In this document: positions 24,544-36,469 of the stretch, one piece after another
How the letters are laid out: each line of letters opens with the position of its first letter
Numbering within the stretch: position 1 is the stretch's first letter
Origin: an uncultured bacterium
GTDB lineage: Bacteria; Actinomycetota; Actinomycetes; S36-B12; CAIYMF01
Length of the DNA stretch: 52,593 nt
Assembly: GCA_903927265.1 (NCBI GenBank)
Contig: CAIYMF010000073.1
Span: forward strand, 1 to 52,593
Direction: 5' to 3'
The notes under the pieces: generated by a model
Told to the model about the DNA's origin: nothing
The model's database searches: none
Seen by the model: only the letters and a program-made list of their open reading frames with translations
Program-made: the position numbers and the translations under genes

Positions 24544-25656
24544 TCATTGATCGCGGATCGACTGAGGCGGGATTCCCGTCCAGGCATCCCGCAGTAGTTG
24601 CTCAATTGCTCCCTGATTGACCGGCCGTGGATTGACCATTCCCGCCGCTGCTACGGCCGCCGCCGCCGACGCGATATCGCCCTCGCGAAGACCAATCGAG
24701 GCCAGCGTGGTGGGTGCGCCGATGGCCTGTTCGAGCTCCCACATTCCGACCGCGGGGTTCACCGCGTTGATGCCGGCTGACACAAGAGCGCGCTGGGCTC
24801 GGTCAAGTGCCGCGGAAGCGTAATCAAGGTTGTAGGCGATCGCATAGGGCAGCACGACCGAGTGCACACTGGCGTGCGGTAAGTCGTAGTTACCCCCCAC
24901 GACATGGCAGATCTTGTGATGGATGCCCATGCCTGCTACTCCCAGCGTCCAGCCAGCCAACCAGGCGCCGTACAGCGCAGTCGAGCGGGCGGCGAGGTCA
25001 GAAGGATCGGCCACGACGAGCGGCAGTGCGGTGGCGAGCGCCCGCACTCCCTCTTCGGCGACGAGTGTGGTGATCGGTGAGGCGCCGGGGGCGTAGAGGC
25101 CCTCCACGAGATGTGCCATGGCATTCATGCCACTTGCGGCAGACAAATCCGAAGGCAGACTCAAGGTGAGTTCAGGGTCGTAGACAACGACCCGTGGCTG
25201 CACTCGCGGATCGCGACCTACTGTCTTGACCCCACCCTCGGTCAGACCCCAAATGGTCGTCATCTCGGAGCCGGCATAGGTGGTGGGAACAGCCAAAATG
25301 GGTAGCCCGCTCTCAAGAGCGATCGCTTTGGCTGCTCCCGTTGACGAACCCCCTCCGACGCAGACGACGAGATCGGCCTGTGCTGCTCGTGCGGCGTCTG
25401 CCGCTGCGCGCGCGACCTCAACGGGTACGTGCATCACGACATCAAAGAATCGACCTGCGAGTCGCGATCCGAGCGCATCGGCCAGTGAGTCCGCATAGGC
25501 CGCCTCGGGGCCTCCTGCGACGAGAAGGACGCGTGAGCACCCCATGCGATCTACTTCATCGGGCACCTCAGCGAGTCGGCCAGCGCCGAAGACGACTCTC
25601 ATCGGCGAACTCTCGTGTACGAACCCGTCAACAACAGCCTCGAATGACTCGATCAT
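24544..25656 (-). CDS. Maleylacetate reductase
   Basis: A 370-residue iron-type alcohol dehydrogenase family enzyme that reduces maleylacetate to 3-oxoadipate with NAD(P)H. The cofactor loop is VVCVGGGSSTGAAKAIAL, followed by PTTYAGSEMTTIWGLTE. The metal-site region reads MNAMAHLVEGLYAP and GMGIHHKICHVVGGNYDLPHASVHSVVLPYA, the diagnostic stretch of maleylacetate reductases. It is the last gene of the hydroquinone operon, overlapping the CoA-transferase gene by 4 bp. It is the junction enzyme for both branches, since hydroquinone and hydroxyquinol both yield maleylacetate. Confidence 0.92.
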   Translation of the reverse strand: MIESFEAVVDGFVHESSPMRVVFGAGRLAEVPDEVDRMGCSRVLLVAGGPEAAYADSLADALGSRLAGRFFDVVMHVPVEVARAAADAARAAQADLVVCVGGGSSTGAAKAIALESGLPILAVPTTYAGSEMTTIWGLTEGGVKTVGRDPRVQPRVVVYDPELTLSLPSDLSAASGMNAMAHLVEGLYAPGASPITTLVAEEGVRALATALPLVVADPSDLAARSTALYGAWLAGWTLGVAGMGIHHKICHVVGGNYDLPHASVHSVVLPYAIAYNLDYASAALDRAQRALVSAGINAVNPAVGMWELEQAIGAPTTLASIGLREGDIASAAAAVAAAGMVNPRPVNQGAIEQLLRDAWTGIPPQSIRDQ

Positions 25657-27290: not shown

Positions 27291-28754
27291 TCACCGCGCG
27301 TAGAAGGGCGGAATGTCCGCGTCGACGTTGATCCAGATTGCTTTGGCTTCGGTGTACTCGTGCATCGCCTCGAAGCCCATCTCGCGCCCGTAGCCCGAGG
27401 CGCCCATGCCGCCGAAGGGTGATCCGGGGTGCGCCCGCTTATACGAGTTGACCCACACCATTCCGGCGTTGATGTCGCGGGCCATGCGGTGAGCGCGGCT
27501 CAGGTCGTTGGTCCAAAGGCCGCCGCCGAGTGCGAACTCAGTTTCGTTGGCGATGGCGAGCGCTTCCTCGTCGGTGCTGAACGTCTGCACTGTCATGAAG
27601 GGGCCGAAGACTTCCTCACACGTGACTCGCGAACCCGGTCGTGCACGCACCACCGTTGGTTCGACGTAGCATCCCTGGGTGAGTGCAGGATCGCTGGGAG
27701 CCTTGCCGCCGAGGAGTACTTCTCCGCCTTCGTCGACGGCCACCTGCACGTAATTGAGCACACGGTCGCGGTGCATGGGTGAAGTGAGTGGTCCCATCTC
27801 GGTGCTGGGATCCTTGGGGTCTCCGACTTTGATCGATGCAGCAAGAGTGAGGAAGCGTTCAAGAAATTCGTCGGCGACGGACTCGTGAATGATCAAGCGG
27901 CTGGCGGCAATACACGCCTGCCCCTGATTGTGAAAGATGCCGAATGCGGTGCCACCGACTGCTTTGGGAAGTGTGGCGTCTGCAAACACGATGTTGGCAC
28001 CCTTGCCGCCCAATTCAAGGTGCGTGCGAATTCCCAGACCCGCGGCCTGCGATGCAATCATGCGGCCAACCGGGGTGGATCCGGTGAATGAGATCTTGGC
28101 GATATCAGGGTGAGTGACTAGGCGCGCACCGGCAGTCTGCCCATAACCCGGAAGCACGTTGATGACACCGCGTGGAAAGCCCACCTGCGCGGCAAGTTCA
28201 GCGATGCGCAGTGCAGTCAGAGGCGTGAGCTCCGACGGCTTCATGACGATGCAGTTACCTGCGGCCAACGCAGGCGCCATCTTCCAGCTGACGAACATCA
28301 TGGGGAAATTCCATGGAACGATCGAACCGACGACGCCGAGAGGTTCGCGCACGACGTAGTCAAGGAATCCTCGGTCAACCGGTACTACCGCACCTTGAAA
28401 CTTGTCGGCCATTCCCCCGAAGTAGCGAAACTGCATGGCGGTGCGCACGAGATCGAGGCCGCGTGAATCGCGCAGAGGGTGACCCGTATCGCGCGTCTCA
28501 AGAAGCGCAAGCTCCTCACCGTGTTCCTCAATCGCGTCGGCAAGGCGCAACAGAAGTCGCCCACGATCGGTGGCCGACATGGCCTTCCACTCGGGGTAAG
28601 CGCGCTTGGCTGCCTCAACGGCACGATCGACATCAACTTCGGTCGCCTCGGAGATAGTGGCGAGCAGGCTCATGTCGTGCGGGTCGAAGACCTCGATGGT
28701 GCGTCCGTCGGCACCATCGGTGAACTCGCCATCGATAAACAACTGCGTCTGCAT
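27291..28754 (-). CDS. 4-hydroxymuconic semialdehyde dehydrogenase (aldehyde dehydrogenase family)
   Basis: A 487-residue NAD-dependent aldehyde dehydrogenase: GSIVPWNFPMMFVSWKMAPALAAGN (cofactor fold), ISFTGSTPVGRMIA, ELGGKGANIVF (general-base Glu) and FHNQGQACIAASRLI (catalytic Cys). The C-terminus VNSYKRAHPGSPFGGMGASGYGREMG is typical of semialdehyde dehydrogenases. Its place between hydroquinone 1,2-dioxygenase and the CoA-transferase/maleylacetate reductase genes mirrors hapE/pnpE, so it most likely oxidises 4-hydroxymuconic semialdehyde to maleylacetate. The enzyme class is certain; the substrate rests on context. Confidence 0.85.
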   Translation of the reverse strand: MQTQLFIDGEFTDGADGRTIEVFDPHDMSLLATISEATEVDVDRAVEAAKRAYPEWKAMSATDRGRLLLRLADAIEEHGEELALLETRDTGHPLRDSRGLDLVRTAMQFRYFGGMADKFQGAVVPVDRGFLDYVVREPLGVVGSIVPWNFPMMFVSWKMAPALAAGNCIVMKPSELTPLTALRIAELAAQVGFPRGVINVLPGYGQTAGARLVTHPDIAKISFTGSTPVGRMIASQAAGLGIRTHLELGGKGANIVFADATLPKAVGGTAFGIFHNQGQACIAASRLIIHESVADEFLERFLTLAASIKVGDPKDPSTEMGPLTSPMHRDRVLNYVQVAVDEGGEVLLGGKAPSDPALTQGCYVEPTVVRARPGSRVTCEEVFGPFMTVQTFSTDEEALAIANETEFALGGGLWTNDLSRAHRMARDINAGMVWVNSYKRAHPGSPFGGMGASGYGREMGFEAMHEYTEAKAIWINVDADIPPFYAR

Positions 28755-28826: not shown

Positions 28827-29813
28827 TCAGAACTCGACCGGGTAGGTCGGCGCCTTGCCGCTGGCGATGAGTTCGGGAACGTCGGAACTGCCGTTCTCCC
28901 ACACCAACAGCATCGAGCGCTTGGGCGAGTAGCCCTGGTGGCGAATGTCGGCGGGCATGGCGCACACGTCGCCCGCCTTCATCGTGACGCGTGAACGCAC
29001 AGCACCGGTGTCGCGGTCTTCAACATCCCACGTGATCTGGTCGCTGAGTTGGATGAACCATTCGACGCGGTCGTTGCCGTGAATGATCGGCAGGATGTAC
29101 TCCTCGGTCGTGGGGCAGAAGAGCGAGTCCTTGCAGGCACTGACCACCGACGGGTTCCAGGTGACGTCAGAACGCGAGAGGTAAGAGAACAGGTTGAATG
29201 CCGCTACCTCACCTTCGAAGCCAGGCTCTGGCTCAACGACCGGCTCGGACTGGTCGACATCGAGGAACATACGGTTCACGGGCATTCCGGACTCGTCGCT
29301 GCGGATCTGCTCGTCGCCGGGAACTCCCACCATGCGAGCGGCCGCAACTCGGCGGCGCGTGACCGCCGAGATGTTGTCGCCGTTCTTCACTCCCCAGGCA
29401 GCGCCCGTCTCGTGCGGTGAAGCGAAAGGGTCGAACGTGGAGTTCGTCCAGTCGGCGAGAATCGACTTGAACGTTTCGCGAATAGCCGGCGTCTCGTGGT
29501 TTTCGCTGTAGTCGAGTTCAGCCTTGCGATACGAGTCGTTGTAGCGACCCGCGAACACGTCGACGGTGCCGTAGTGGTTGACGGTTCCGAACACGCCGTC
29601 GAAATTCACGATGCCGTAGAAGAAGTCCCAGGCGACATCGCGCTGAAGCGCGCGTAGGAAGGCGTCGACACTCATCATGTGCGAGCCGGTGGGCCAGGCA
29701 ATGTAGACGAAGTACTCATCACGGCTGAAGGTGAACTCGCCGAGTTGGAACTGGTGGTAGCCCTCGGTGTTGGGGCTGTCGCTCTTCACGACCTCAATGT
29801 CGGTGGCAGTCAT
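28827..29813 (-). CDS. Hydroquinone 1,2-dioxygenase, large subunit (HapD/PnpD type)
   Basis: A 328-residue catalytic subunit. Its N-terminal half has the family stretch VDAFLRALQRDVAWDFFYGI, then FDGVFGTVNHYGTVDVFAGR. The iron site is fully conserved: His245, Asn247 and Glu251 in PIIHGNDRVEWF, and His292 in PADIRHQGYSP. The +2, +6 and +47 spacings equal those I recall for PnpD (His256, Asn258, Glu262, His303). The C-terminus is a cupin barrel. It splits hydroquinone to 4-hydroxymuconic semialdehyde with O2 and Fe(II). A GAGGAGA site precedes the start, and the small-subunit gene ends 12 bp upstream. Confidence 0.87.
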   Translation of the reverse strand: MTATDIEVVKSDSPNTEGYHQFQLGEFTFSRDEYFVYIAWPTGSHMMSVDAFLRALQRDVAWDFFYGIVNFDGVFGTVNHYGTVDVFAGRYNDSYRKAELDYSENHETPAIRETFKSILADWTNSTFDPFASPHETGAAWGVKNGDNISAVTRRRVAAARMVGVPGDEQIRSDESGMPVNRMFLDVDQSEPVVEPEPGFEGEVAAFNLFSYLSRSDVTWNPSVVSACKDSLFCPTTEEYILPIIHGNDRVEWFIQLSDQITWDVEDRDTGAVRSRVTMKAGDVCAMPADIRHQGYSPKRSMLLVWENGSSDVPELIASGKAPTYPVEF

Positions 29814-29825
29814 GGTGTGTTCTCC

Positions 29826-30356
29826 TCAGACGGTCTGGCAGATTTCGGCCCAGCGGAACTGGGTGTCGGGTCCGGCAATGGTTTGCATCATCAGAACGGC
29901 CGGTGCTGCCGTGCTGAAGCGGTACGCGGCTCCCGAGGGAAGTAGCGCCTGGTGGCCGTGGCCGAGGTGAATGCGGCCCATCGGTCGGCCTGCGGGCTCA
30001 CCGTCGAGAGCGATCGAGCCCTCAGCGTCGGCAGCCAGGGGTGAAACGTCGAGCTTGACCAGCTCGACTGTCACGCGGCCGTCAAGGCAGACGACGAATT
30101 CATCGTGGGCGGCGGTGCGCCACTGCGACGTTCCCTCAGCGCGCACCGCTTCGAGGACGTATTCAAAGTTCTTGGCGACGGCGACCTTCTCCCACGGCTT
30201 ACTAGTCGCCGCTACCTCAAAGATGTTCGAAAAGGCGTAGTGCCGCGCGTCATCGTTGATCAGCTCGACCCCACCCTTGTCGTAGGAGTCAAGCGAGCCA
30301 AAGACCGTTGTGTAGGCGGATTTCTCGACTCCGCCGCTCTTCGAGGGGGTTCCCAT
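29826..30356 (-). CDS. Hydroquinone 1,2-dioxygenase, small subunit (HapC/PnpC type)
   Basis: A 176-residue cupin-fold subunit, the expected ~19 kDa partner of the large subunit. The barrel is visible in RTAAHDEFVVCLDGRVTVELVKLD and GRIHLGHGHQALLPSGAAYRFST; VELINDDARHYAFSNIFEVAA begins the fold. The ATG at 30356 has GGAG 7 nt upstream, while a GTG one codon earlier has worse spacing. In this two-subunit enzyme class the small subunit stabilises and caps the active site. It is the first gene of the hydroquinone operon, immediately behind a pair of 17-bp operator sites. Confidence 0.83.
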   Translation of the reverse strand: MGTPSKSGGVEKSAYTTVFGSLDSYDKGGVELINDDARHYAFSNIFEVAATSKPWEKVAVAKNFEYVLEAVRAEGTSQWRTAAHDEFVVCLDGRVTVELVKLDVSPLAADAEGSIALDGEPAGRPMGRIHLGHGHQALLPSGAAYRFSTAAPAVLMMQTIAGPDTQFRWAEICQTV

Positions 30357-30369
30357 CACAGTGCTCCTT

Positions 30370-30405
30370 TGTGCGTATAGCGAACTTTCGTTCGCTCTCA
30401 GAACA
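30370..30405. promoter_or_regulatory. Tandem operator pair, hydroquinone operon promoter
   Basis: Site 1 is TGTGCGTATAGCGAACT (30370-30386) and site 2 is CGTTCGCTCTCAGAACA (30389-30405), starting exactly 19 bp apart. Both match the shared consensus TGTTCGTCTAGCGAACA in their arms. Together they also contain the obvious inverted repeat AGCGAAC-TTTC-GTTCGCT (30379-30396). The pair begins 14 bp before the small-subunit start, so it covers the promoter or its immediate downstream edge. Confidence 0.68.
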
Positions 30406-30513
30406 GAGACTGGACCTTAGAGCAGGAGTAAGTCAATAGATCGGCCGAATTTTGTTGGGCGCCGGGTGATGGAATCAGGTGGTTCGGTAGCAGCCGTGCG
30501 CAGAGCGCGCGTC

Positions 30514-30530
30514 TGTTCGCACAACGCACA
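30514..30530. promoter_or_regulatory. Operator site at the PcaR-like regulator promoter
   Basis: TGTTCGCACAACGCACA matches the 17-bp operator family, with arms TGTTCG and CGCACA identical to those of the site at 31928-31944. It covers the -35 zone of the TAGAGT promoter at 30539-30544, a good position for autorepression. A weaker possible partner lies 19 bp upstream (30495-30511). Confidence 0.6.
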
Positions 30531-30538
30531 CTGTGCAC

Positions 30539-30544
30539 TAGAGT
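30539..30544 (+). promoter_or_regulatory. Putative -10 box of a leaderless transcript
   Basis: TAGAGT ends 6 nt before the ATG of the IclR regulator gene at 30551. No Shine-Dalgarno sequence is present. The identical hexamer at the same distance serves the VWA gene at 31964. Confidence 0.6.
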
Positions 30545-30550
30545 CATGGC

Positions 30551-31327
30551 ATGGCCGACGAAGAGCAGCGTCCGCTGGAGTTCGTTCAGTCGCTCGAGCG
30601 TGGCTTGGCCGTGATTCAAGCCTTTTCACGCGAGCGGCCGCGCCTGACGCTGTCGGATGTCGCACGCGAAACGGGCATGACTCGCGCTGCAGCTCGTCGA
30701 TTCCTGTTGACGCTTGAACATCTCGGGTACGTCTCGTCTGATGGCCGCCTGTTTAGTTTGCGGCCGCGGGTGCTGCAACTGGGATACGCCTACCTCTCGT
30801 CGTTTTCGTTGGCACAGAACGCCCAAGACCACTTAGAGGAACTTGCCGAGCAACTTCACGAGTCGTGCTCGGCCTCAGTACTCGACGGTGACGACATCGT
30901 CTATGTGGCGCGTGCGTCGACGAACAGGATCATGACCATCGGATTGTCAGTGGGTACCCGATTGCCGGCCTACTGCACGTCGATGGGGCGAGTGATGCTG
31001 GCATTCCTCGACGACTCTGCCATCGACGACTACCTCGATCGTGCCGAGCTCGTTCCTCGCACCTCGCGAACCGTCACTGATCCGGTAGCGCTGCGGGCTG
31101 AACTGATGCGCGTACGTCACCAGGGCTACTGCGTCATGGATCAAGAACTCGAAGACGGTGTGCGTTCCGTGGCGGTTCCGGTACATGACGCGGGCGGCCG
31201 AGTGGTGGCGGCAATCAATGCCAGTACTCACGCGGCACGTGTTCCGCTGAAGACTGTTGAGCACGATTTCTTACCACTTCTGCAAGCATGTGCTCGGCAG
31301 ATTGACCAAGGTCCTTCCGGGCGTTAG
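30551..31327 (+). CDS. IclR-family regulator, PcaR/PcaU/PobR type
   Basis: A 258-residue IclR regulator of the PcaR-PcaU-PobR branch, which in known cases controls beta-ketoadipate genes. The DNA-binding wing reads FVQSLERGLAVIQAFSRERP and VARETGMTRAAARRFLLTLEHLGYV. The effector domain contains ASVLDGDDIVYVARAST, LPAYCTSMGRVMLAFL and MDQELEDGVRSVAVPV, all characteristic. It is divergent from the hydroquinone operon. The paired 17-bp palindromes at three nearby promoters and one at its own promoter are its likely operators. The inducer is unknown, with 3-oxoadipate or hydroquinone as candidates by analogy. Confidence 0.9.
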   Translation: MADEEQRPLEFVQSLERGLAVIQAFSRERPRLTLSDVARETGMTRAAARRFLLTLEHLGYVSSDGRLFSLRPRVLQLGYAYLSSFSLAQNAQDHLEELAEQLHESCSASVLDGDDIVYVARASTNRIMTIGLSVGTRLPAYCTSMGRVMLAFLDDSAIDDYLDRAELVPRTSRTVTDPVALRAELMRVRHQGYCVMDQELEDGVRSVAVPVHDAGGRVVAAINASTHAARVPLKTVEHDFLPLLQACARQIDQGPSGR

Positions 31328-31896
31328 CGCCCGCCGTCACGCAGCACGGGCGTGGCGCCCACCACGAGGGCCCGAACTTGCGCGAGCAGGTCGGCGATAT
31401 CAAGTTCCTGAGGCACTGTGACGAGCAGTGTCTGTGCGCCAGCGCGAGCAAGCGCGAGTACCTGCTCTTGCGCCTGCTCAAAGGTTCCGAAGATGCCCGA
31501 CTCTTGAGGATGGGCCGCGCCGGCGAGCCGTGGATCGCGGTCAGCGCGAGCGACAGCCTCGTTGTGTGTGCGGCCGATCGACACTGAGACGGCGACGGTC
31601 AGTGCCCGATCGTCGCCCGTCGCTCTGAGTGTGGCGAGTCTCTCGCGCACTAGTTGGGGGTCGTTGCTTCGGACGATCGAGGGGTCGTCGGACCCGTCGT
31701 CTCTCACTACGCGCGTGGGTGCGGCTGCTCGGGTGAGATGTTCGAGGTCGCAGGCGGCGAACTGCTCGCCTGGGCTAGTCCGAACGTGAACGGCGGTGTA
31801 CCCAAGTCGGGATGCCAGCCGAGATTGATGTTCGTAGGTCGCCAGATCGCTGTCGTGGGGCAGCATCAGTGCCAGTGCAAGCAACTGATCGGCCAT
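31324..31896 (-). CDS. Short luciferase-like monooxygenase (LLM)-like protein
   Basis: A 190-residue protein. The ATG at 31896 has GGAG 5 nt upstream; the longer open frame overlaps the divergent VWA gene and is not supported. The start MADQLLALALMLPHDSD...YEHQSRLASRLGYTAVHVRTSP and the end GIFGTFEQAQEQVLALARAGAQTLLVTVP resemble the first strands and last third of the LLM TIM barrel, but the protein is barely over half the usual ~330 residues and the middle is missing. It may be a degenerate or regulatory, F420/FMN-free relative. It shares its promoter region and operator pair with the VWA gene. Its stop overlaps the convergent IclR gene by 4 bp. Confidence 0.55.
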   Translation of the reverse strand: MADQLLALALMLPHDSDLATYEHQSRLASRLGYTAVHVRTSPGEQFAACDLEHLTRAAAPTRVVRDDGSDDPSIVRSNDPQLVRERLATLRATGDDRALTVAVSVSIGRTHNEAVARADRDPRLAGAAHPQESGIFGTFEQAQEQVLALARAGAQTLLVTVPQELDIADLLAQVRALVVGATPVLRDGGR

Positions 31897-31908
31897 CACA
31901 TCTCCATC

Positions 31909-31944
31909 TGTTCTTCTGGCGAACATCTGTTCGTCAAGCGCACA
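31909..31944. promoter_or_regulatory. Tandem operator pair in the LLM/VWA divergent promoter
   Basis: TGTTCTTCTGGCGAACA (31909-31925) and TGTTCGTCAAGCGCACA (31928-31944) start exactly 19 bp apart. The first has perfect TGTTC/GAACA arms, the second TGTTCG/CGCACA. The pair lies between the LLM-like ATG (31896) and the VWA -10 box (31952-31957) and can control both directions. Confidence 0.68.
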
Positions 31945-31951
31945 CTCAGAG

Positions 31952-31957
31952 TAGAGT
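31952..31957 (+). promoter_or_regulatory. Putative -10 box of a leaderless transcript
   Basis: TAGAGT ends 6 nt before the GTG of the VWA gene at 31964, with no ribosome-binding site. It begins 8 bp after the operator pair, which would therefore occupy the -35 zone. Confidence 0.6.
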
Positions 31958-31963
31958 GCGGTC

Positions 31964-33325
31964 GTGGCCCTCGCAACAATCCCTCCGATCGAGGGGGTTC
32001 CTGCCGCCATTCTTGACGTGGTGCGTCGCATGCGGGCCGGTGGTCTACCGGTGTCAACCAGTGAGGTTCTCGACGCGACTGCCGCGCTCGCCACTGTTGA
32101 CTTTGATTCGCGGCCGGCGGTGCGTATGGCGCTGAAGGCGACCCTGGTGAAGGACGCCACTCACGACGTGTTGTTTGAGCGCACCTTCGAAGCAGTCTTT
32201 CCACACGTCCCACGACGCGGCACCATGAACGCGAGCGGCACCACAGCACCGCAGGGTGACGAGGAATTGATGGATGAACTCGTGCGGGCGATGCGCGAGG
32301 GTGACCTCGCTCAGATTGATGAACTGCTTGATGAAGCGGTCGAGCGTTACGCAGGAACGGACAAGAACACCGCATCCGCGGGGCATCACACCAACCGCGC
32401 ACTTCGCCGCATGAACATCGCATCGATCTATCAGCGCTACCTCCAAGGTGGCGACAGCGAATCGCGCTACGACCGCGCGGTTGATGCGGCCGAAGCCGGA
32501 GCGATGCTCGAGTCGATGAAATTGCGCATGGGTGACCTCGTGTCGGGTCGGTTGCGCGAAGCCGGAACTGAATCAACTCGTCAGGCACTAGAGGATCCAG
32601 AAGATCGACCGCTGTTGCTGGCTGGCCCCGACGAACTTGCCGCGATGCGTCAGGCGATGCGTCCGCTGGCACGTCGGCTTGCCACGCGTTTGGGAAACCG
32701 CCGTCGCCGAGGATTGTCTGGACTCGACATGCGACGCACGATTCGTTCGTCGATGGGTACCGGCGGTGTGCCGGTGAATCCGGTGCTGCGACGCAAGCGT
32801 CCGACAAAGCCTGACCTCATGGTGCTGTGCGATGTCTCGGGTTCGACCGCCGAGTTTGCCCCGTTCACACTGACGTTGCTGCACGCCGTGCACCAGGAGT
32901 TCAATCGCGTGCGTTCATTTGTCTTCGTTGATGGAATTGTTGAAATCACCGACATCCTCGCTGACTCACCGGGAGTACTTGATCCGCGTCAACTCTTGGG
33001 ACGCAAGGGTTTGGTCGTGGGTGACGGGCGCAGTGATTACCAGCAGGTGCTGCACCGTTTCCTCGAGACATGGGGTGACGGTGTCACAGGCAAGACCACC
33101 GTGATCGTGGCGGGCGATACGCGCTCACATCGCAAGCAGTCGGCGGTGCGCGAACTTGCTGAAATTCAGCATCGCGCTCGACGTCTCTACTGGCTTAACC
33201 CCGAACCGACACACGAATGGGATCTACTCGATTCATGCGCCTCTGAGTACGCCACCCACTGCACTGATTTCTTTGAGGTTGCGACCATTCGTCAACTGAT
33301 TGCGGCCGTGACTCAGATCGTTTAG
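31964..33325 (+). CDS. VWA-domain (CoxE-like) partner of the MoxR ATPase
   Basis: A 453-residue cytoplasmic protein. The N-terminus (ILDVVRRMRAGGLPVSTSEVLDATAAL) and the C-terminal von Willebrand A domain fit CoxE/YehP-type proteins. The MIDAS motif is DLMVLCDVSGSTAEF (DxSxS), with VIVAGDTRSHRK as the later metal-ligand loop. The middle, residues ~90-260, is charged and helical. VWA proteins of this kind act with a MoxR AAA+ ATPase to remodel or load metal into a client enzyme. The matching ATPase is at 34509-35387, on the other side of the thiolase. Its promoter carries the same operator pair as the hydroquinone operon. The GTG start is leaderless. Confidence 0.85.
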   Translation: MALATIPPIEGVPAAILDVVRRMRAGGLPVSTSEVLDATAALATVDFDSRPAVRMALKATLVKDATHDVLFERTFEAVFPHVPRRGTMNASGTTAPQGDEELMDELVRAMREGDLAQIDELLDEAVERYAGTDKNTASAGHHTNRALRRMNIASIYQRYLQGGDSESRYDRAVDAAEAGAMLESMKLRMGDLVSGRLREAGTESTRQALEDPEDRPLLLAGPDELAAMRQAMRPLARRLATRLGNRRRRGLSGLDMRRTIRSSMGTGGVPVNPVLRRKRPTKPDLMVLCDVSGSTAEFAPFTLTLLHAVHQEFNRVRSFVFVDGIVEITDILADSPGVLDPRQLLGRKGLVVGDGRSDYQQVLHRFLETWGDGVTGKTTVIVAGDTRSHRKQSAVRELAEIQHRARRLYWLNPEPTHEWDLLDSCASEYATHCTDFFEVATIRQLIAAVTQIV

Positions 33326-34512
33326 ACCCGCTCGATGATCATTGCTGCGCCCTGGCCTACGCCGATGCACAGTGAAGCGATTCCGTAACGGCCGCCGGTG
33401 CGTTCGAGGTGTCCGAGAAGTGAGACCACGATGCGCGCACCGCTCGATCCGAGGGGGTGGCCCAGAGCAATTGCGCCACCACCGGGATTGAGTTGGGCGC
33501 GATCGAGTCCCAATTCCTTCTCGCACACCAGTACCTGCGCCGCGAATGCCTCGTTGATGTCGACGACATCAATATCGGCAAGCGTGAGGCCCGCTTTCTC
33601 TAGCGCGTGCCTGATGGCAGGGACAGGTCCGGTGCCAAACAGGCTGGGTGCCACTGCGGCCACGGCGTAACTCACGATCCGCGCGCGAGGTGTGAGTGAG
33701 TGAGTTGCGATTGCCTGTTCTCCCGCAACCACGATTGCGCTCGCTCCGTCAGACAACGGCGATGAGTTACCCGCGGTACTGATTCCGTCTGCACTGAACG
33801 CTGGTTTGAGTCGGCTCAGTGACTCGCGCGTGGTGGTGGCGCGGATCGTTTCGTCGCGTGTGAAGGGGCCCGTCGATGTGTGCACGGCCACAATCTCCGC
33901 CTCGAAATCACCCCGATCGTTCGCGGCTGCTGCCAGCGTCTGAGAGCGCAGTGCGTACTCGTCGGCAGAGTCGCGAGAGATGCCGTACATGCGTGCGATC
34001 TTCTCGGTGCATTCGCCGAGAGACAGGGTGGCGTCTGCGTCATCGAGTGCCGCCATGCGCGGGTTGACCAAACGCCAGCCGAGCGCAGTGTCGAACATCG
34101 GTCCGGGTTTGGCCCACGCGGCGGAGGGCTTGCCCATCACCCACGGAGCACGGGTCATCGACTCAGCGCCGCCTGCGATGCCGAGGTCGATGTCACCGGA
34201 TCGAATCGCTTGAGCTGACGACGCGATCGCTTGAAGCCCTGAGGCACAGAGACGGTTGACCGTGTAGCCAGGAACGCTGTCTGGAAGGCCAGCCAGCAGA
34301 ACCGCCATGCGCGCGACGTTGCGGTTGTCGTCACCGGCCTGATTGGCCGCCCCCAACACCACATCATCAATGCGGTCTGCGGGGACACCGGTGCGCGCAA
34401 CAACTTCACTGACGACAAGGGCGGCAAGATCGTCGGGACGTACTTCGGCGAGAGCGCCGCCGTATCGTCCAACGGGTGTACGAACACCTCCGACGAGAAA
34501 GACTTCAGTCAT
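33322..34512 (-). CDS. pcaF: 3-oxoadipyl-CoA/acetyl-CoA acetyltransferase (thiolase)
   Basis: A 396-residue thiolase that would split 3-oxoadipyl-CoA into succinyl-CoA and acetyl-CoA. The nucleophilic Cys is in VNRLCASGLQAIASSAQ, the His is in GGAIALGHPLGSSGAR, and the second Cys is in IASLCIGVGQG. VDINEAFAAQVL is the NEAF motif. It is the last step of the hydroquinone/hydroxyquinol pathway encoded here, although a general acetyl-CoA acetyltransferase role is possible. Its start overlaps the MoxR ATPase stop by 4 bp. Its stop overlaps the convergent VWA gene by 4 bp. Confidence 0.87.
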   Translation of the reverse strand: MTEVFLVGGVRTPVGRYGGALAEVRPDDLAALVVSEVVARTGVPADRIDDVVLGAANQAGDDNRNVARMAVLLAGLPDSVPGYTVNRLCASGLQAIASSAQAIRSGDIDLGIAGGAESMTRAPWVMGKPSAAWAKPGPMFDTALGWRLVNPRMAALDDADATLSLGECTEKIARMYGISRDSADEYALRSQTLAAAANDRGDFEAEIVAVHTSTGPFTRDETIRATTTRESLSRLKPAFSADGISTAGNSSPLSDGASAIVVAGEQAIATHSLTPRARIVSYAVAAVAPSLFGTGPVPAIRHALEKAGLTLADIDVVDINEAFAAQVLVCEKELGLDRAQLNPGGGAIALGHPLGSSGARIVVSLLGHLERTGGRYGIASLCIGVGQGAAMIIERV

Positions 34513-35387
34513 CGCGACGATTCCAATCCGAATTGCTCAACGACGCGGTGGCGATCAGATTGGTGCTTGAGCACGACTCCCAGGGTTTGGCCAATTACTT
34601 CTTCAGTGAGCTCTGTGACGTTGAGAATCTGCATCGCCTGCGCCCAGTCGATCGTCTCGGCGACACTGGGTGCCTTGCGTAGATCCAGCGTTCGCATGGC
34701 ACGCACCGAACGCACAAGTTCGGTGGCCAGAGTTTCAGTGATCTCGGGTACGCGAGACATCACGATTGCGCGCTCGCGCGTTGCTTCGGGGTAATCGACG
34801 TGAGCGTAGAGGCAACGACGCTTGAGCGCTTCGGACAACTCGCGCGTGGCATTGGATGTCAACACAACGAAGGGTTTGTGCGTGGCAGTGATAGTGCCGA
34901 GTTCGGGCACGGTGACTTGAAATTCACTCAGGACTTCGAGCAGGAGCCCTTCAACTTCAACATCAGCTTTGTCGGTCTCATCAACGAGAAGAACAGTTGG
35001 GCCCTCTTGTCGAATTGCGGTGAGCAGGGGACGAGCAAGGAGAAATTCCTCGCTGAAAATATCGTCGTGAAGGGCGTGCCACTCATCTGAATCCTGATCG
35101 GTCTGCGCAGCTTGAATGCGCAGCAGTTGCTTGCGGTAGTTCCACTCGTACAGGGCGCGGGCTTCATCGAGACCCTCGTAGCACTGCAACCGCACCAAAG
35201 TCGCCCCGGTTGCTACCGCCACTGCCTTCGCCAGTTCGGTCTTACCGGTTCCGGCCGGACCTTCGAGCATGATCGGCTTGCCCAAGGCGTCACCGAGATA
35301 CACGACGGTCGCGAGGGCCTCGTCGACGAGGTAGCCGGTACTCGCCAGCTTTTCCCGTGCGTCGGTGATCGAGGTGAAGAAGGGCAT
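34509..35387 (-). CDS. MoxR-family AAA+ ATPase (CoxD-like)
   Basis: A 292-residue AAA+ ATPase: Walker A is MLEGPAGTGKTELAKAVA (residues ~40-57), Walker B is VLLVDETDKADVEVEG, sensor 1 is VVLTSNATREL, and the arginine-finger region is EALKRRCLYAHVDYP. MoxR/CoxD enzymes use ATP to remodel a client protein, usually with a VWA partner such as the CoxE-like protein at 31964-33325. It heads a two-gene operon with the thiolase, behind a tandem operator pair. The GGGAG site upstream fixes the ATG at 35387. The client could be the hydroquinone dioxygenase or the molybdenum hydroxylase at 41-45 kb (inference). Confidence 0.88.
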   Translation of the reverse strand: MPFFTSITDAREKLASTGYLVDEALATVVYLGDALGKPIMLEGPAGTGKTELAKAVAVATGATLVRLQCYEGLDEARALYEWNYRKQLLRIQAAQTDQDSDEWHALHDDIFSEEFLLARPLLTAIRQEGPTVLLVDETDKADVEVEGLLLEVLSEFQVTVPELGTITATHKPFVVLTSNATRELSEALKRRCLYAHVDYPEATRERAIVMSRVPEITETLATELVRSVRAMRTLDLRKAPSVAETIDWAQAMQILNVTELTEEVIGQTLGVVLKHQSDRHRVVEQFGLESSR

Positions 35388-35403
35388 GTCACTCCCAAGA
35401 TGA

Positions 35404-35439
35404 TGTTCGCATAGCGACCATATGTTCGTCTAGCGTACA
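35404..35439. promoter_or_regulatory. Tandem operator pair, MoxR-thiolase operon promoter
   Basis: TGTTCGCATAGCGACCA (35404-35420) and TGTTCGTCTAGCGTACA (35423-35439) start exactly 19 bp apart and closely match each other. They lie 17 bp before the ATG of the MoxR gene. They share consensus and spacing with the pairs at 30370-30405 and 31909-31944. Confidence 0.7.
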
Positions 35440-35473
35440 TGTCGCTGTGCGGTCGAGCAAGGCCTTGGTCCCG

Positions 35474-36469
35474 CTAGAACGCAGGTGGCGACGGCACACC
35501 GACTTGCGGAAGTTCATCGGATTCGTAGATGACCGAGGGAGGACCCACGATGAGAGGGTCAGGAGTTCCGATGATCGCAAGGTCTTTGCCGGGGTAGTCA
35601 AGTTGCGACAGAAACCAGCGCATTGCCTCGACGCGGCCGCGCTTCTTGTCGTTGCTGCGCACGACAGTCCAGGGTGCCCACTCGGTGTCGGTGCGCGCGA
35701 TCATCTCGGCCTTGGCTTCGGAGTAGTCGTCCCACCGATTCAGTGAGGCGAGGTCCATGGGGCTGAGTTTCCACTGCCGCACGGGATCGATGCGTCGAAT
35801 CGTGAATCGCGTGACCTGTTCCTTGCGCGAGACCGAGAACCAGAACTTGAACAGAATCGTCCCGCTATTGGTGAGCATCTCTTCGAACAATGGTGCCTGC
35901 CGCATGAACTCGCGGTACTCGTCATCGGTGCAAAAGCCCATCACTCGTTCAACACCGGCGCGGTTGTACCAAGAACGGTCGAACAACACGATTTCACCGG
36001 CGCTCGGCAAGTGCTGCACGTAGCGCTGGAAATACCACTGGCTACTTTCCTTGGGAGTGGGTTTGTTGAGCGCCACCACTCGAGCGTGCCGTGGGTTGAG
36101 ATGTTCCATGAATCGTTTGATGGTGCCGCCCTTGCCAGCAGCATCTCGACCCTCAAACACCATCGCGATCTTCTTGCCATCTTCCTGAACCCAGCTTTGC
36201 ACCTTGAGCAGTTCGATCTGCAGAAGTCGCTTGCTGATTTCGTACTCGTGTCGCGTCATCCGTTCTTCGTATGGATAGTTCTCCATCCAGGTGTCGACGG
36301 GCGTCCCGTCTGGCCCGAGCAATACCGGGTCGTCGACTTCATCAAGGGTGCCCTCAACTGCGAGACCATGCTCCTTGAGTTCCTCATCGCTCAACTCCTG
36401 CAAGCTCGCGATGATGTCGGCGAGATCGACAATCGACTCAACGTCAAGGTGTGCGAACGGCTCGTTCAC
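35474..36469 (-). CDS. ppk2: Polyphosphate kinase 2
   Basis: A 331-residue PPK2. The GTG at 36469 follows GGGAGG and overlaps the previous stop as GTGA; the open frame further upstream overlaps the flippase gene. Walker A is MVFEGRDAAGKGGTIKRFMEHLNPR, Walker B and lid are IVLFDRSWYNRAGVERVMGFC, and the rest (FKFWFSVSRKEQ, RRIDPVRQWKLSPMDL) matches class I PPK2. It would phosphorylate nucleoside diphosphates with polyphosphate, or run the reverse. The extended acidic N-terminus (~70 residues) is usual for actinobacterial members. It is translationally coupled to the flippase-like membrane protein. Confidence 0.92.
   Translation of the reverse strand: MNEPFAHLDVESIVDLADIIASLQELSDEELKEHGLAVEGTLDEVDDPVLLGPDGTPVDTWMENYPYEERMTRHEYEISKRLLQIELLKVQSWVQEDGKKIAMVFEGRDAAGKGGTIKRFMEHLNPRHARVVALNKPTPKESSQWYFQRYVQHLPSAGEIVLFDRSWYNRAGVERVMGFCTDDEYREFMRQAPLFEEMLTNSGTILFKFWFSVSRKEQVTRFTIRRIDPVRQWKLSPMDLASLNRWDDYSEAKAEMIARTDTEWAPWTVVRSNDKKRGRVEAMRWFLSQLDYPGKDLAIIGTPDPLIVGPPSVIYESDELPQVGVPSPPAF

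Follow-up and report, generated by a model that had tools for sequence, protein, structure and literature searches.

Introduction

Few clients of MoxR-type AAA+ ATPases and their VWA-domain partners are known: NO reductase, CO dehydrogenase and Rubisco. CbbQ/CbbO (CbbQO) reportedly remodels inhibited Rubisco. In cytochrome c NO reductase, NorQ/NorD (NorQD) puts the non-haem iron in place, and the VWA proteins that partner MoxR have a finger (PMC9976466, PMC13036017). Here we describe a MoxR–VWA gene pair in a contig of 52,593 nucleotides (CAIYMF010000073.1, assembly GCA_903927265.1; hereafter the window) from an uncultured bacterium of the Actinomycetota (GTDB lineage Actinomycetes; S36-B12; CAIYMF01). 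A branch of its own among MoxR–VWA pairs, found beside the hydroquinone 1,2-dioxygenase HapCD in two phyla and co-regulated with it in Actinomycetota, suggests an undescribed helper for this enzyme.

Hydroquinone dioxygenase from Sphingomonas loses its activity in O2 and partly regains it with Fe(II) and ascorbate; H2O2 also inactivates it, and its own substrate does so irreversibly, with no rescue by Fe(II) (PMC3222310). The same authors suggest that ferredoxins reverse the oxidation of the iron in vivo (PMC3222310). These data agree with a preliminary description of the window, made from its letters, which had called the enzyme class oxygen- and iron-labile. That description also knew of no MoxR–VWA helper for the enzyme, and we found none described for a ring-cleavage dioxygenase in the open-access literature, most subscription papers lying outside that search. 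Rieske/XylT-type ferredoxins, which reactivate ring-cleavage dioxygenases, would fill the same role in keeping an Fe(II) dioxygenase active. They are unrelated proteins, present in proteobacterial hapCD operons and not in the loci studied here.

A MoxR–VWA pair among hydroquinone genes

The MoxR and VWA genes are intact and lie on either side of a pcaF-type thiolase gene, near the genes of the dioxygenase and an IclR-family regulator:

31964 to 33325, plus strand: VWA adaptor, 453 aa, a helical N-terminal domain followed by a VWA domain (PF05762, the CoxE Pfam family, 4.1e-42)
33322 to 34512, minus strand: 3-oxoadipyl-CoA thiolase, pcaF-type (TIGR02430 pcaF, 4.5e-150, 500 bits)
34509 to 35387, minus strand: MoxR-type AAA+ ATPase, 292 aa (PF07728, AAA_5, 2.6e-12; Walker A GPAGTGKT, Walker B LLVDE)
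30551 to 31327, plus strand: IclR-family regulator of the PcaR/PcaU/PobR subfamily (TIGR02431, 356.5 bits, cut-off 284.75)
29826 to 30359, minus strand: HapC, small subunit of hydroquinone dioxygenase (5m21_A, 1.4e-55)
28827 to 29813, minus strand: HapD, large subunit of hydroquinone dioxygenase (PF18191, 3.2e-54; 5m21_B, 3.3e-147)

The VWA and thiolase genes are convergent and overlap by 4 bp. The MoxR and thiolase genes also overlap by 4 bp and thus probably form one operon. The best NCBIfam match of the ATPase is MadB (318 bits, cut-off 475), and MadC scores 162 bits against a cut-off of 600. With both scores under the curated cut-offs, we rejected a MadB/MadC identity, and no explanation of these names for such a context was found in the open-access literature.

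HapC and HapD match solved hydroquinone dioxygenases (5m21, 4zxa). The HapD residues H245, N247, E251 and H292 align with the metal-ligand positions of the solved enzymes and are kept in 23 loci except at contig ends. The corresponding ligands of PnpD in the PnpCD structure are presumably H256, N258, E262 and H303. The dioxygenase of the window is accordingly assigned to HapCD, having two subunits homologous to solved HapCD/PnpCD and the metal-ligand residues retained.

Compared with described systems, the pair is like NorQ/NorD in joining a MoxR ATPase to a VWA partner, in its putative non-haem iron client and in a VWA model whose C-terminal half matches the VWA domain of NorD over 194–213 residues (Z 11–14). 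It differs in belonging to another sequence family, in a client that would be soluble whereas that of NorQ/NorD is membrane-bound, and in genes that converge around a thiolase gene; its neighbours are hap and pca genes and not norCB. With CoxD/CoxE it shares a PF05762 VWA and a MoxR ATPase, the latter sharing 46% identity with the CoxD-type ATPase encoded elsewhere in this genome. However, the window VWA is far from the CoxE of the same genome in the tree, no link to a molybdenum enzyme appears by operator or co-occurrence, and the pair is neither linked to coxMSL nor follows it across genomes. The preliminary label CoxD/CoxE-like is loose, the pair standing on a branch separate from the genuine CoxD/CoxE of the genome. 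CbbQ/CbbO would share the remodelling of one specific enzyme, but acts on inhibitor-bound Rubisco.

The nearest relatives are the proA-moxR-vwa-nadD pairs of Actinomycetota, with VWA about 30–40% and MoxR about 54–73% identical. Unlike the window pair, many of these lie at proB-proA-nadD with MoxR and VWA co-directional, and their flanks, as far as examined, hold no HapD except in L087 (G, L and C numbers are our handles for genomes, loci and contigs, g and f numbers for genera and families). This type of pair is widespread in actinobacteria (L077, L108, L176 and others).

Operators shared by the dioxygenase and the pair

In the window, GTTCGNNNNNCGNAC has exactly four exact matches, at the promoters of hapC, iclR, VWA and MoxR. 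Each has a weaker second site exactly 19 bp off (30371/30390, 30496/30515, 31910/31929 and 35405/35424):

30371 to 30404, minus strand: operator pair upstream of hapC, also present in L042, L044–L050, L065, L157, L161 and Dormibacterota L087
30496 to 30529, plus strand: operator pair upstream of iclR (autoregulation), with two mismatches in the outer site
31910 to 31943, plus strand: operator pair in the divergent promoter of VWA and a luciferase-like open reading frame (ORF), kept upstream of VWA in L042, L046, L049, L156 and L157
35405 to 35438, minus strand: operator pair upstream of MoxR and thiolase, kept in L042, L046, L047, L049 and L050

No operator pairs at other spacings from 10 to 39 bp were found in the window, and 40 order-1 shuffles of it gave 0 pairs. 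Single sites with one mismatch are at chance level in the window, so the signal is carried by the pairing. Elsewhere, the 19-bp pair occurs upstream of VWA in G207 (L156:3529) and G432 (L157:6806), and in G353 (L161:9361) it lies in the stretch separating hapC from the IclR-VWA unit. Scans of 30300–35600 for sigma-70 promoters and terminators gave no matches.

We take the PcaR site of P. putida to be GTTCGATAATCGCAC, and GTTCGNNNNNCGNAC is close to it. A regulator of the subfamily scoring over its cut-off, together with GTTCG-N5-CGnAC sites, places these genes in a PcaR/PcaU-type IclR regulon. The preliminary description had the MoxR, thiolase and VWA genes and their coordinates right, as judged by ORF positions and Pfam/NCBIfam profile matches. 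Its operator pairs are likewise real, with four 19-bp pairs that include the hapC, VWA and MoxR promoters and none in the shuffles; and its placing of the pair in the hydroquinone regulon is borne out by operators common to hapC, iclR, VWA and MoxR.

The pair follows the dioxygenase across genomes

We surveyed 166 genomes of the order to which the window belongs, excluding from the VWA count a group of 34–36% identity in another gene context. HapD is found in 13 and VWA in 14 of the 166, with both in 12 (Fisher p = 1.9e-15, relatedness ignored). For genera g3, g12, g17 and g21, VWA is present only in genomes with HapD, and the two come and go together. VWA without HapD is limited to G107 and G109, metagenome-assembled genomes that are 61% and 87% complete, with VWA on a short contig or near a contig end. 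In genus g25, no thiolase gene lies between the MoxR and VWA genes. The cluster is also carried by L067 (CAMDKQ010000164.1), which gives the same match as C164, a contig of G111 from this order.

Further genes of the window's hydroquinone cluster are the following:

27291 to 28754, minus strand: aldehyde dehydrogenase (ALDH), for the 4-hydroxymuconic semialdehyde step, the neighbour of HapD wherever the contig of a HapD locus extends far enough
24544 to 25656, minus strand: likely maleylacetate reductase (MAR), a member of the iron-type alcohol dehydrogenases; homologues beside proteobacterial HapCD are annotated maleylacetate reductase
31324 to 31896, minus strand: small luciferase-like (LLM-like) ORF of about 190 aa, divergent from VWA (alignment of 14 members)

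The genes downstream of HapCD encode ALDH, CoA transferase subunits, the MAR-like enzyme and a branched-chain-type ABC transporter. One protein of the luciferase-like family has a match to PF00296 (1.5e-5).

An independent, phylum-wide draw of 396 genomes, based on HapD alone, gave six further HapD genomes. In four of the six (G193, G207, G432 and G353), VWA and HapCD share a contig, with varying gene order. For example, VWA adjoins the luciferase-like ORF in G193 and G432 and overlaps iclR in G353, and in G207 MoxR comes directly after MAR inside the hapCD gene run. In a fifth genome, G178, VWA lies close to where a broken contig stops, and the downstream sequence resembles that of its sister G193, so that the linkage is by synteny. 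Outside the phylum, Dormibacterota contig L087 has HapD, HapC and the luciferase-like ORF with a divergent VWA that is 37% identical. The shrunken luciferase-like protein, divergent from VWA, is kept in the order, in G193, G207, G432 and Dormibacterota L087, and is not near the VWA of G353.

Among 12 proteobacterial plasmid hapCD operons, a small and taxonomically narrow set, a Rieske ferredoxin is present in 9 and MoxR/VWA in none (0/12). The actinobacterial and Dormibacterota HapCD loci examined contain no Rieske ferredoxin. In the proteobacterial operons L154, L155, L178–L183 and L185, the ferredoxin, often with a YciI-family protein before it, looks like a conserved pathway helper.

The molybdenum hydroxylase at 41–45 kb, which the preliminary description offered as the alternative client, scores 718.8 bits against a CO dehydrogenase cut-off of 991. 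It lies about 6 kb from the pair and is present in 12 of the 14 VWA genomes, and CoxD/CoxE-type pairs mature CO dehydrogenase. However, no operator pair was found at the hydroxylase, 41–45 kb. The window type (at least about 70% identical) is present in 72 genomes of the order, 60 of which have no VWA, and the reverse is found in G029 and G076, which have VWA without the hydroxylase. On contig C78 (L003), the window genome also has a bona fide CO dehydrogenase operon of form I (1270 bits), which includes a separate MoxR and VWA. In G002 (L202, C38), the window-type CoxL-like hydroxylase has CoxE and CoxD as neighbours, with 54% and 79% identity to those of C78; in G003 (L203, C106) it lies next to CoxE. 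The genome survey that the preliminary description had proposed thus shows a pair that follows HapCD and not the hydroxylase. The opposite distribution, with the pair following the hydroxylase and missing where only the dioxygenase is present, was named there as speaking against HapCD and was not found, and the alternative client is disfavoured.

Ancestry of the pair and a mosaic boundary

In an IQ-TREE phylogeny of 64 VWA proteins, all 19 HapCD-linked members, Dormibacterota L087 included, form one clade (support 100/99; 200 of 200 bootstrap trees). Three of the 19 (G107, G109 and G178) were assigned by synteny with sister genomes and not on the same contig. The clade is separate from CoxE and from the pairs often found beside proA, proB and nadD. 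The root position and inner order are uncertain because of the long branches of L161, L087 and CoxE. A FastTree phylogeny of 101 rows reaches the minimum of 3 label changes overall. The HapCD group, however, takes 2 changes there (1 in the 64-row IQ-TREE) and is not set off by any single branch.

The window is a mosaic. Its block HapD-HapC-IclR-VWA-thiolase-MoxR is closer to family f5 (VWA 73–80%, MoxR 81–90% identical) than to the window's own family (VWA 53–54%, MoxR 67%). ALDH, MAR and LivK show the reverse, with a boundary between 28754 and 28827, and a single contiguous exchange suffices to explain the pattern. Because this boundary groups VWA and MoxR with HapD, HapC, IclR and the thiolase, they appear, from these identities, to have moved with HapCD and to be inherited along with it, apart from the next pathway steps.

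A third type of pair is found in L055–L061 (G086–G093, genus g22), with MoxR 57% and VWA 32–34% identical. It lies beside MaoC-like dehydratases and acyl-CoA dehydrogenases, in several loci with repeated VOC-fold proteins, and its client may differ again.

Motifs and predicted structure

The core residues of the MoxR nucleotide motifs (Walker A GPAGTGKT, Walker B LLVDE) are invariant in 15 homologues. The metal-ion-dependent adhesion site (MIDAS) of the VWA protein comprises D290-S292-S294, S357 and D385. Of these residues, D290, S292 and D385 are invariant in 56 homologues, and S294 and S357 are at least 90% conserved; S357, with S replacing T, is our own assignment.

A sequence search of the VWA protein against the PDB gave no match up to E 0.01, and a fold comparison was therefore used. 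The structural model was weak with a 15-sequence alignment (predicted local distance difference test, pLDDT, 69; predicted template-modelling score, pTM, 0.46) and reached a mean pLDDT of 78 and a pTM of 0.51 with 56 sequences. Its C-terminal half (residues 221–453) matches the VWA domain of NorD in NorQD complexes and the MIDAS domains of Rea1/MDN1 over 189–213 residues (Z 11–14). Many generic VWA domains align only from about residue 280, against about 221 for NorD and Rea1/MDN1. The segment concerned has a pLDDT mostly of 62–77. Within the model, the conserved segment around 253–283 (LDMRRTIR..TGGVP) is a candidate finger into the MoxR ring.

Discussion

We put the probability that the pair is a dedicated maintenance machine for HapCD, a loader or reactivase, at roughly 60%. 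The observations behind this figure are the gene identities, the shared and conserved operators, the HapCD-linked VWA clade, linkage that recurs in different families and in two phyla, and the NorD/Rea1-like VWA model. A HapCD loader or reactivase in place of a ferredoxin is favoured because HapCD is iron-labile, NorQD inserts iron and, among the loci compared, the Rieske ferredoxin is found only in proteobacterial ones. Still, the narrower proposal of a AAA+ activase or iron loader that replaces the Rieske ferredoxin of Proteobacteria in Actinomycetota and Dormibacterota is tentative, at a little under even odds.

The IclR regulator would induce MoxR and VWA together with HapCD. A MoxR hexamer would hold the VWA domain through the segment that precedes the first strand of that domain. 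HapCD itself would be gripped by two other parts of the VWA protein, the metal site and the helical N-terminal domain. ATP hydrolysis would then loosen the dioxygenase, so that Fe(II) could enter the apo-enzyme, or oxidised iron or a dead-end adduct could be cleared. We infer the contact with HapCD, the choice between iron loading and inhibitor removal, and a MoxR acting in trans wherever none is adjacent.

A number of observations weigh against a HapCD helper. HapCD of Proteobacteria works without the pair, which is therefore not obligatory for the fold, and no feature of HapC or HapD specific to VWA-bearing genomes is evident by eye. G110, a fragmented metagenome-assembled genome, has HapCD on a contig that starts 49 bp before hapC, but neither a matching VWA nor a close MoxR. 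G514 has HapCD without a linked VWA, on a contig that stops inside the thiolase gene, and a proA-nadD-type pair elsewhere. Genus g25 yielded no operator close to either VWA or MoxR. MoxR is linked less tightly than VWA to HapCD: it is not adjacent to VWA in G193, G353, G432 and L087, as far as the contigs extend, so MoxR from elsewhere, for which there are candidates, would have to serve in these four loci outside the order. Finally, ALDH and MAR almost always accompany HapCD, so linkage alone cannot separate the client.

The same client may be served in another way, by freeing HapCD of a suicide adduct or tight-binding inhibitor rather than by iron loading. CbbQO on inhibited Rubisco is a precedent for this action. 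Substrate inactivation of the Sphingomonas enzyme, which Fe(II) does not reverse, also fits it, but the partial reversal of aerobic inactivation by Fe(II) and ascorbate (PMC3222310) points to the iron state, and so does, for the iron redox state, the Rieske ferredoxin of proteobacterial operons. Iron handling is thus somewhat more likely. Adduct removal is a version of the HapCD reading that overlaps with it in confidence, and taken separately we consider it rather unlikely.

Less probable again, in our view, is a different client within the hydroquinone cluster, namely the luciferase-like ORF, ALDH, MAR, the thiolase or an intradiol dioxygenase. The luciferase-like ORF is divergent from VWA in most loci, L087 included, but G353 has VWA without it nearby. 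ALDH and MAR stand beside HapCD in nearly all loci, but the mosaic boundary splits VWA and MoxR from both, and no MoxR–VWA helper is known for enzymes of either type. In g25 the pair has no thiolase next to it, the G193 and G207 loci contain none, and an intradiol dioxygenase was found in few loci.

The pair might also be a passenger, a general MoxR–VWA system with no specific client that was copied into a catabolic island and spreads with it as one block. The block did move between families as a unit, and related pairs exist at proA-nadD and at the third, MaoC/VOC-rich locus. This explanation is nonetheless improbable, given that the operators upstream of VWA persist in distant families despite a different gene order, that the HapCD-linked VWA proteins form their own clade spanning two phyla, and that VWA is retained where the thiolase, the CoA transferase or the operon order changes. 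Least probable by far is the molybdenum hydroxylase as client, in view of its missing operator, its distribution and the CoxD/CoxE proteins of its own kind described above.

Oxygen, peroxide and its own substrate all destroy the dioxygenase. A HapCD helper would offer an answer to how bacteria keep such an enzyme working, with relevance to the breakdown of hydroquinone, 4-nitrophenol and alkylphenols. For the MoxR–VWA family, the clade is well delimited, and its predicted client is specific, soluble, easily assayed and has structurally solved homologues, which makes MoxR–VWA action testable in vitro.

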